Source of the DNA: Apteryx mantelli
Taxonomy: Eukaryota > Chordata > Aves > Apterygiformes > Apterygidae
NCBI RefSeq assembly: GCF_036417845.1
Contig: NC_089980.1
Location: forward strand, 44,948,501 to 45,012,500
Length of the DNA stretch: 64,000 bases
Direction: 5' to 3'
Both the position numbers and the translations under genes were made by a program. The notes under the pieces were generated by a model. That model did no database searches. It had not been told where the DNA came from and saw nothing but the letters and a program-made list of their open reading frames with translations. Below are positions 11,207-20,979 of this stretch, piece by piece. The number at the start of each line of letters is the position of its first letter. The first letter of the stretch is position 1.

Positions 11207-11317
11207 CAGTTGTCACCTGCTTTTCTGTCAAGTGAGATGTTTAATGAGATGTACAGCGTGCAATCTGACCCATTAGTTCTACTTAAATCTCACAAAAAGC
11301 AATTCAGATTCCTGAAG
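11207..11317 (+). CDS. Candidate gene, exon-like segment of 37 codons
   Basis: An in-frame TAG ends at 11206 and the frame opens at CAG, just after an acceptor TGTAG. It stays open to a consensus donor, CTGAAG/GTAAGC, at 11317. The peptide begins QLSPAFLSSEMFNEMY and ends in a basic stretch, KSHKKQFRFLK. Phase is 0 to 0. Confidence 0.45.
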
Positions 11318-20300: not shown

Positions 20301-20979
20301 CCTATTGCACAGAGTGGTGGGGAAACGAGTGTTGCTGATGGCCGTACTCGGCATCTAGGGATGCTGCAGCTGCTGTGCATGGCACACGCACACAGGTGCT
20401 ATAGAGGCCCACAGCTCCTCACAGTTCCAGGAACAAGAGGAAGAGGCAGCCAGGAGGAGGAAAGAAAACACAAACTGAATAATCAGGAAAAGAAGATAAA
20501 CTGTGCTGAGTGGCAGCTGATCTTTAGAGAGCGGGCTGTGTAAATACCCCAAGGGCCTTGTGCATCATCCCTGGGAAGCTAGTCCCCAGAGAGGGACTCA
20601 GCTGGATCACCACATCACTCCACATTGGAGGTATGTTTACTTCTGCCCAGCCCTCAGTGTTTCCTGTGAAAACATTCCCCTGCTCATAACGAATATATGC
20701 TGACCTTTTAACAAGCAATGTTTCCCTTCTGTGTCTATACACATCTCTCTGTGCCAGAAAAAGCCTCCAAATAAATTATTTACTGCTCATTCTCTTCTAG
20801 ACATCATACGGAGGTGCAGTTCAGCCCCATCTCCCAGGGTTCAGTGGGGAGACCAGTGGCCAAATAACAGGATTCTTCGTTTTGTCCTCAGTCCATGTAT
20901 AGGAGAGATAAAGCATAGCTTCTCCACCTGTATGCTCTTACACTGGAAGCAATTTGAAGCAAAAACTTGCCCAACATAA
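11207..20979 (+). CDS. Candidate multi-exon protein-coding gene, family not recognised
   Basis: Ten exon-like open segments with AG/GT borders chain in compatible phases: 11207-11317 (0-0), 12206-12417 (0-2), 12718-12937 (2-0), 13082-13164 (0-2), 17365-17603 (2-1; 17359 is an alternative acceptor), 18238-18375 (1-1), 18795-18984 (out by one base as read), 19137-19192 (1-0), 19390-19864 (0-1) and 20801-20979 (1 to TAA). If one A in the exon 18795 run is ignored, the total is about 633 codons with no stop. The predicted peptide has normal globular composition, rich in Leu, Ser, Lys, Glu and Gly, with a CPLC pair in the longest exon. I cannot assign a family or function. The 3' half has the better splice sites; several 5' donors are weak (GTAGTA, GTTTTT, GTGCAT). 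It is transcribed away from RSPH9, possibly from the same CpG island. A decaying gene is the main alternative. Confidence 0.5.
12206..12417 (+). CDS. Candidate gene, exon-like segment of 70 codons
   Basis: The acceptor CTGCCCCATTAG is good. The frame runs NWHPLGREIKLRFPC through a Leu/Ile/Lys-rich helix-like stretch to KHLEMPL. The proposed donor (GCA/GTAGTA) is weak and sits just before two in-frame TAG codons. Phase is 0 to 2. Confidence 0.4.
12718..12937 (+). CDS. Candidate gene, exon-like segment of 73 codons
   Basis: The frame contains NLPPDYLESSDFTGF, LNAFFAYTSLLDMVDM and GKYRVFFNKEGTIDG, then reaches a strong donor, ATT/GTGAGT. The acceptor (TTATTCCTCCCAAG) is only fair. Phase 2 to 0 matches the segments on both sides. 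Without splicing, the same frame continues to TAG at 13043. Confidence 0.45.
13082..13164 (+). CDS. Candidate gene, exon-like segment of 28 codons
   Basis: A strong acceptor (CCCTACTTCTTATAGTACAG) precedes an acidic/hydrophobic peptide containing VLETELDVEKLWEYFGCKLL. The assumed donor AAG/GTTTTT is weak. The frame otherwise stays open to TGA at 13205-13207, so this could instead be a terminal exon of a shorter transcript. Confidence 0.4.
13165..17358 (+). other. Large intron-like interval with a CR1 insertion
   Basis: The interval contains the CR1 copy at 16546-17276 and one further exon-like segment, 13769-13888 (acceptor TTTGTGTCTTTCAG, donor ACA/GTGAGA). That segment is open in two frames but did not fit the phase chain. 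Nothing else coding could be supported. Confidence 0.4.
16546..17276 (-). mobile_element. CR1 LINE copy with the C-terminal part of ORF2
   Basis: The largest and best preserved CR1 in the window lies on the minus strand. From 17071 down to 16628 it encodes the end of the CR1 reverse-transcriptase ORF2 (RPHLEYCVQFWAPQYKRD, RRATKMIRGLEHLSYEERL, LINVCKYLKGGCQEDG, VTEHWNRLPREVV). The sequence upstream of it (DLGVLVDNKLIKSQQCALS) is in a different frame, so there is a frameshift near 17080. It is 5'-truncated and cannot move on its own. It sits in the intron before candidate exon 17365. Confidence 0.95.
17365..17603 (+). CDS. Candidate gene, exon-like segment of 80 codons
   Basis: A very strong polypyrimidine tract and acceptor (GCTTTTGCTTTTACCTGCCTCAG) lie at 17335-17358, with a second AG at 17364. 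The frame includes GMRPFHICSREVFWVM and FVNAAAQHYTTGKWGG. It meets TGA at 17618-17620. A phase-1 donor (GAG/GTGCAT, after 17603) fits the next segment; a better donor, GTGAGG at 17617, would give phase 2. The segment lies just downstream of the CR1 copy at 16546. Confidence 0.5.
18238..18375 (+). CDS. Candidate gene, exon of 46 codons
   Basis: Both borders are strong: TTTTTGCCCCTGTTAACCTAG at the acceptor and CTCAG/GTAAGC at the donor. The length is exactly 46 codons, phase 1 to 1. The peptide includes LGSLRSFIFEVMGHS and LNLQPVSKHYPLGVG. Confidence 0.55.
18795..18984 (+). CDS. Candidate gene, exon with a one-base frame conflict
   Basis: The acceptor is GGTCATTAG and the donor AGAG/GTAACC. 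From base 18819 onward the open peptide reads SQLLYISDQCGLLRGEMP and then KLLVVRAQWHGSS. Entering from the preceding exon in phase 1 reads MPLGQQK and then hits TAG. Entering in phase 0 stays open but does not match the exon before. A run of six A bases at 18813-18818 lies exactly where the two frames would join if it were five. Confidence 0.5.
19137..19192 (+). CDS. Candidate gene, small exon of 56 bases
   Basis: The acceptor is TATATACATTAG and the donor GTG/GTATGA. It is the only frame that bridges the phase-1 end of the previous exon to the phase-0 start of the next, reading IRFARRQYAREPFSLFSV. It was identified largely by phase fit, so the borders are less certain. Confidence 0.4.
19390..19864 (+). 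CDS. Candidate gene, longest exon (475 bases)
   Basis: The acceptor TTTTTTTGCAG and donor CTTG/GTAAGC are both near consensus. All 158 codons are open. The peptide starts GYDSGKDLGWMDEALSPGF, has a Ser/Gly/Arg-rich middle, a CPLC pair, a Leu/Ala/Lys helix-like stretch (LLTLLLQEASKILAKKC), and ends DYDRYLSIASRHGHAS. One CXXC pair alone is not enough to claim a zinc finger. I recognise no family. Confidence 0.55.
20801..20979 (+). CDS. Candidate gene, terminal exon
   Basis: An excellent acceptor (TTTACTGCTCATTCTCTTCTAG) begins a frame whose phase matches the preceding 475-base exon. It stays open for 58 codons (including RVQWGDQWPNNRILRFVLS and STCMLLHWKQFEAK) to TAA at 20977-20979. Confidence 0.5.

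Follow-up and report, generated by a model that had tools for sequence, protein, structure and literature searches.

A coding-like exon, possibly the remnant of a decaying or lost gene, between RSPH9 and an EPHX1-like gene of the kiwi Apteryx mantelli

The DNA analysed here (the window) is a stretch of 64,000 nucleotides (nt) of the kiwi Apteryx mantelli (contig NC_089980.1, positions 44,948,501 to 45,012,500). Towards its left end, minus-strand open reading frames (ORFs) that we take to be RSPH9 adjoin the interval 11207-20979, and further to the right lies an EPHX1-like gene. A sequence-only reading of this interval had proposed a plus-strand gene of ten exons and about 633 codons, naming four of its segments (Table 1). 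The tests described below cover those four. One of them, 19390-19864, is probably, although not certainly, a present or former coding sequence, and the three others lack a coding signal.

Periodicity of the bases by codon position, and amino-acid usage, were scored against stop-free random sequence of equal composition. For 19390-19863 the codon-position chi-square was 28.0 (p = 0.0035), while eight pieces of known exons from the window gave 6.8-30.6, with p < 0.01 in five of them. Non-coding controls were 42 ORFs of 88-138 codons, all shorter than the exon, taken from 21200-40700 and from 46600-51400; the second of these regions, the source of three of the 42, reaches into the end of the EPHX1-like gene. 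Every control fell below the exon (maximum chi-square 12.8, smallest p 0.07), and the amino-acid score of 19390-19863 was +9.2 bits versus a non-coding maximum of +3.9. The remaining named segments show no periodicity (11207-11317, p = 0.37; 18237-18374, p = 0.80; 20803-20976, p = 0.71), and the amino-acid score of the last is negative (p = 0.98).

An exon score, made up of a codon model (three third-position G+C settings) plus splice scores, picks out the same place. With the G+C-rich islands and a GTPBP2 segment set aside, 19390-19696 ranks first of all exon-like segments that are 240 nt or longer. Its score of 18.5 is the best of 10651-41200 and was reached in none of 150 second-order shuffles of that region (maximum 13.8), 42 of which contained any qualifying exon segment at all.

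Table 1. Positions of the proposed exon segments and of the neighbouring genes in the window.
Feature	Position	Strand	Size, scores or basis	Remarks
RSPH9 first exons, left neighbour	ORF 9374..9985	-	ORF translation, presumed identity	adjoins candidate interval
Segment, first named	11207..11317	+	donor 6.9, acceptor -1.9	good donor, poor acceptor; no coding signal
Segment	18238..18375	+	donor 7.1	strong donor; phase clash with 19390; no coding signal
Segment	19390..19864	+	475 nt, 158 full codons; splice scores 3.8/3.5	only named segment with coding signal
Segment, possible 3′ end	20801..20979	+	acceptor 5.5	ends in TAA; phase fits 19864; coding unsupported
EPHX1-like gene, right neighbour	41293..48473	+	Pfam and ORF/exon calls	outer limits approximate
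EPHX1-like gene, exon	42361-42541	+	exon scan	

The GT and AG borders claimed for the named segments are present at 11317, 18238, 18375, 19390, 19864 and 20801, and an in-frame TAA ends at 20979. When ranked among all GT or AG sites on both strands of the whole window, the donors at 11317 and 18375 are in the top 0.2% and that at 19864 in the top 2%; the acceptors at 20801, 19390 and 18238 are in the top 1.4%, 3.4% and 3.9%. The acceptor at 11207 is poor (top 22%). The phases were said to be compatible, and this is true of the junction from 19864 to 20801. Segment 18238-18375 is open solely with one incoming base, and hands on one, whereas 19390-19864 is open solely with none (phase 0), again handing on one, and has no stop or frameshift in that phase. 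The two phases clash, so these segments could not be spliced directly to each other and an extra, unnamed exon would be needed between them. Elsewhere in the interval, at 13769-13888, an acceptor scoring 9.6 precedes a 40-codon open segment that has weak donors and no coding signal.

The ten-exon model is a chance construction. The longest phase-compatible series of AG...GT segments, at most ten in number and closed by a stop, was built for 11207-20979, for 100 first-order shuffles of it, and for both strands of four comparator intervals of the same size, of which three are overlapping non-genic intervals and the fourth holds a G+C-rich island and real exons. Chains of 633 codons or more were reached in 97 of the shuffles (mean 756, maximum 1007). 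The longest possible chain in the real interval has 1031 codons on the plus strand (862 on the minus strand), exceeding all 100 shuffles; the six strands of the non-genic comparators gave 849-967 codons, and the fourth comparator 1134 and 1234, above the real interval. The excess over the shuffles probably reflects, in part, the long exon 19390-19864 and the CR1-like stretch described below. With strict splice sites the best chain shrinks to 163 codons, matched in three of the 100 shuffles and two of the eight comparator strands. Some 4.5e13 chains of ten exons, whatever their total length, run through all four named segments to the named TAA, so that any single one of them is a free choice. 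A ten-exon gene of about 633 codons is unsupported: shuffles nearly always build such a chain, the number of alternatives is astronomical, a coding signal is absent from three of the four named segments, and the search among proteins of 286-910 residues, at E up to 1, found none with the strongest exon. For scans of this kind, long phase-compatible GT-AG chains are worthless as evidence unless every exon is scored singly.

Relatives of the exon were sought with its 158-residue product in a collection of 5.8 billion sequences, using a tool that takes proteins of 0.55-1.75 times the query length (87-276 residues). Thirteen candidates yielded a single relative at E up to 1 (E = 1.2e-10), the protein fragment P0001. 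In a second search the exon was the scored region of a 520-residue read-through, covering proteins of 286-910 residues; none of 162 candidates matched with E up to 1, this padded query having no positive control. Lengths of 277-285 and of more than 910 residues fall outside both searches. Across the two ranges covered, no named protein, kiwi included, was found that contains 19390-19864 at E up to 1. Shared five-residue words are required by the search, so distant relatives may be missed. For comparison, the MAD2L1BP exon of the window gave 227 matches at E up to 0.001 in the same collection, among them kiwi, rhea, emu, tinamou, alligator, turtles and mammals; its 171 residues are 100% identical to the 'MAD2L1-binding protein-like' of Apteryx mantelli mantelli and 99% to that of A. 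owenii.

P0001 is 97 residues long, with three member sequences and 10 contigs, and is a putative orthologue of 19390-19864. It follows kiwi frame 0 for 65 codons (41 identical, at least 30 nucleotide changes, gaps of four residues and one residue) and then kiwi frame +1 for 28 codons (23 identical, five changes). Since the alignment moves from frame 0 to frame +1, P0001 has one base fewer than kiwi, and the only relative found therefore does not conserve the open frame but is out of frame in its second half. Read in kiwi frame 0 and assumed to be single changes, three of the five later differences are silent, one is missense and one creates a stop. By chance alone, roughly half of the visible changes there would fall at third positions, so unconstrained sequence would be expected to look like this. 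Visible changes are denser in the first part (at least 30 in 195 nt, all amino-acid-changing) than in the second (five in 84 nt). Together, the densities and the mix of silent, missense and stop changes give no sign of purifying selection on the kiwi frame.

In searches for a known protein family, six tested segments had no match in Pfam, NCBIfam gave none, and PDB none that was significant (one match, E = 1.4). A Pfam scan of all six frames of 11-21 kb and the plus frames of 21-41 kb found nothing above the cut-off and one chance match (E = 0.28); the same six-frame method recovers the EPHX1-like gene at 42-45 kb and misses the CR1-like stretch at 16.6-17.1 kb, so this negative rules out well-preserved domains only. 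Rfam, at gathering thresholds, had no match in the window. Viral and prokaryote contigs gave 1 and 68 pattern matches, with no relative of the exon among them. The structure predicted for the exon product from two sequences (the exon and P0001) had a mean predicted local distance difference test (pLDDT) score of 36.9, too poor to use.

Two copies of a repeat lie at 16550-17280 and 38049-38596, in blocks that are 73-83% identical and in the same order, and 33 nt common to this family recur at a third place, 30563-30595. We take all three to be CR1-like retrotransposon stretches, and the minus-strand ORF 16628-17089 presumably represents the end of a reverse transcriptase protein. The window also carries an inverted repeat (27382-27441 and 28216-28275) with arms of 60 nt, 95% complementary and spaced 774 nt apart. 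The CR1-like stretch at 16.55-17.28 kb is about 2 kb from 19390-19864, which could then be a fragment of an old mobile element, but such an origin is very improbable: the repeat listing for 10-41 kb has no family involving the exon, only one database relative was found, and the six frames of 11-21 kb hold no Pfam element domain, this last point being weak as the CR1-like stretch was also missed.

The right-hand neighbour is identified as an EPHX1-like gene by the Pfam domains EHN (2.9e-27) and Abhydrolase_1 (2.4e-8), with a further Abhydrolase_1 stretch below the cut-off (3.6e-4); we assign to it the first ORF at 41293 and an exon at 48365-48473. It is followed on the right by MAD2L1BP and then by GTPBP2, the latter presumed from its ORFs and exon segments. 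We know of no human gene between RSPH9 and MAD2L1BP, and as kiwi has an EPHX1-like gene there, the entire segment including that gene may have been lost in mammals. A literature search on the RSPH9-MAD2L1BP interval returned neither gene name among the matches listed. On the other side, composition reveals a G+C-rich stretch within 9-11 kb, with RSPH9 in and beside it. Its part immediately upstream of the RSPH9 start, 10000-10600, is a possible two-way promoter, and any transcript into 11-21 kb more likely starts there than at 11207.

This arrangement bears on the possibility that the frame of 19390-19864 is open by chance in non-coding DNA, the segment perhaps being an exon of a long non-coding RNA (lncRNA) from the G+C-rich promoter region shared with RSPH9. 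Divergent lncRNAs at CpG promoters would resemble the present case in the place beside the RSPH9 start and in the splice-like sites. A chance frame would explain the lack of any named protein match at the lengths searched, the out-of-frame P0001 with visible changes free of frame constraint, and the poor predicted fold, although this was built from two sequences only. Open frames of such length are also frequent by chance, ORFs of at least 172 codons appearing in 55 of 150 shuffles, and human codon usage does not favour the frame, scoring -21.6 in it and -11.2 and -34.2 in the other two. That measure is driven by G+C content, the G+C-rich islands coming out on top. Opposed to a chance origin are the periodicity, higher than in all 42 non-coding ORFs, and the exon score, higher than in all 150 shuffles, and we regard this explanation as possible, if rather doubtful.

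It is unlikely, in our estimate, that the exon belongs to a live, fast-evolving kiwi or palaeognath gene missed by annotation, with a true exon set other than the one proposed. The intact 158-codon exon, its coding composition and the good in-phase acceptor downstream are what such a gene would show, as are the two whole-codon gaps relative to P0001 in the exon's first half, but these gaps could arise from a bias of databases towards open frames alone. A live gene is further at odds with the missing match at 87-276 or 286-910 residues, given that the collection contains proteins of kiwi, rhea, emu and tinamou, with the lack of coding signal in the remaining named segments, and with the frame of P0001.

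Bucky ball (Velo1) was weighed because a germline gene lost in mammals had been proposed for this interval. We presume that the chicken gene lies elsewhere than this locus. Short Bucky ball-like motifs gave only scattered short matches in six frames, and the candidate was rejected; the literature searched held no paper naming both Bucky ball and RSPH9. One paper lists the chicken gene as LOC420748 (LOC420478 in the title), and the word 'chromosome' is absent from its main text (PMC9546911).

The reading that we favour, at about an even chance, is that 19390-19864 is a remnant exon of a decaying or lost gene. It is suggested by a composition that looks coding in one frame, by splice sites that fit, and by the out-of-frame relative elsewhere. 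The segment would be a genuine internal coding exon, or its recent remnant, whose parent gene may once have lain between RSPH9 and the EPHX1-like gene and may be decaying or lost in birds, as a unitary pseudogene in progress. We infer that a full protein is no longer produced from the kiwi copy, and likewise the loss of the gene itself; if still transcribed, the exon would most likely form part of an unproductive or non-coding transcript. The suggestion of a gene decaying in this lineage thus survives for one exon and lapses for the ten-exon gene.

A number of observations weigh against this interpretation. The kiwi exon is intact in its open phase, no intact relative was found at the lengths searched, and no other exon of the supposed gene is identifiable. 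The amino-acid score taken alone reaches only p = 0.053 against composition-matched stop-free sequence, and periodicity in the two halves of the exon, taken singly, reaches no more than p = 0.03 and 0.07. The highest score belongs to a form that ends at 19696 rather than 19864 (the 19864 form sums to 17.2), and the exon, with sites that score 3.8 and 3.5, drops out of a scan at splice thresholds of 4.0/4.0. The frequency of long ORFs in shuffles and the human codon usage score count here also, the latter disagreeing with the former coding signature expected of a unitary pseudogene, which was seen for 19390-19864 and for no other named segment.

A known case of this kind is STK33: it is reported to be intact in the palaeognaths examined, and all 28 neognaths of that study carry it as a unitary pseudogene (PMC4509753). 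The likeness would be to a gene open in some birds and reduced in others to exons with indels and stops (PMC4509753). STK33 differs in having clear homologues and a known exon set, whereas a single exon is seen at the kiwi locus. That 19390-19864 is the largest exon of a palaeognath-specific survivor of a vertebrate gene that has no annotated relative, intact in kiwi and broken or lost in other birds and mammals, is quite improbable. If instead the exon is a remnant, as we favour, the RSPH9-MAD2L1BP interval would have lost a further gene in birds and mammals, and the kiwi exon would serve well as a probe in looking for its intact form in crocodiles, turtles or frogs.
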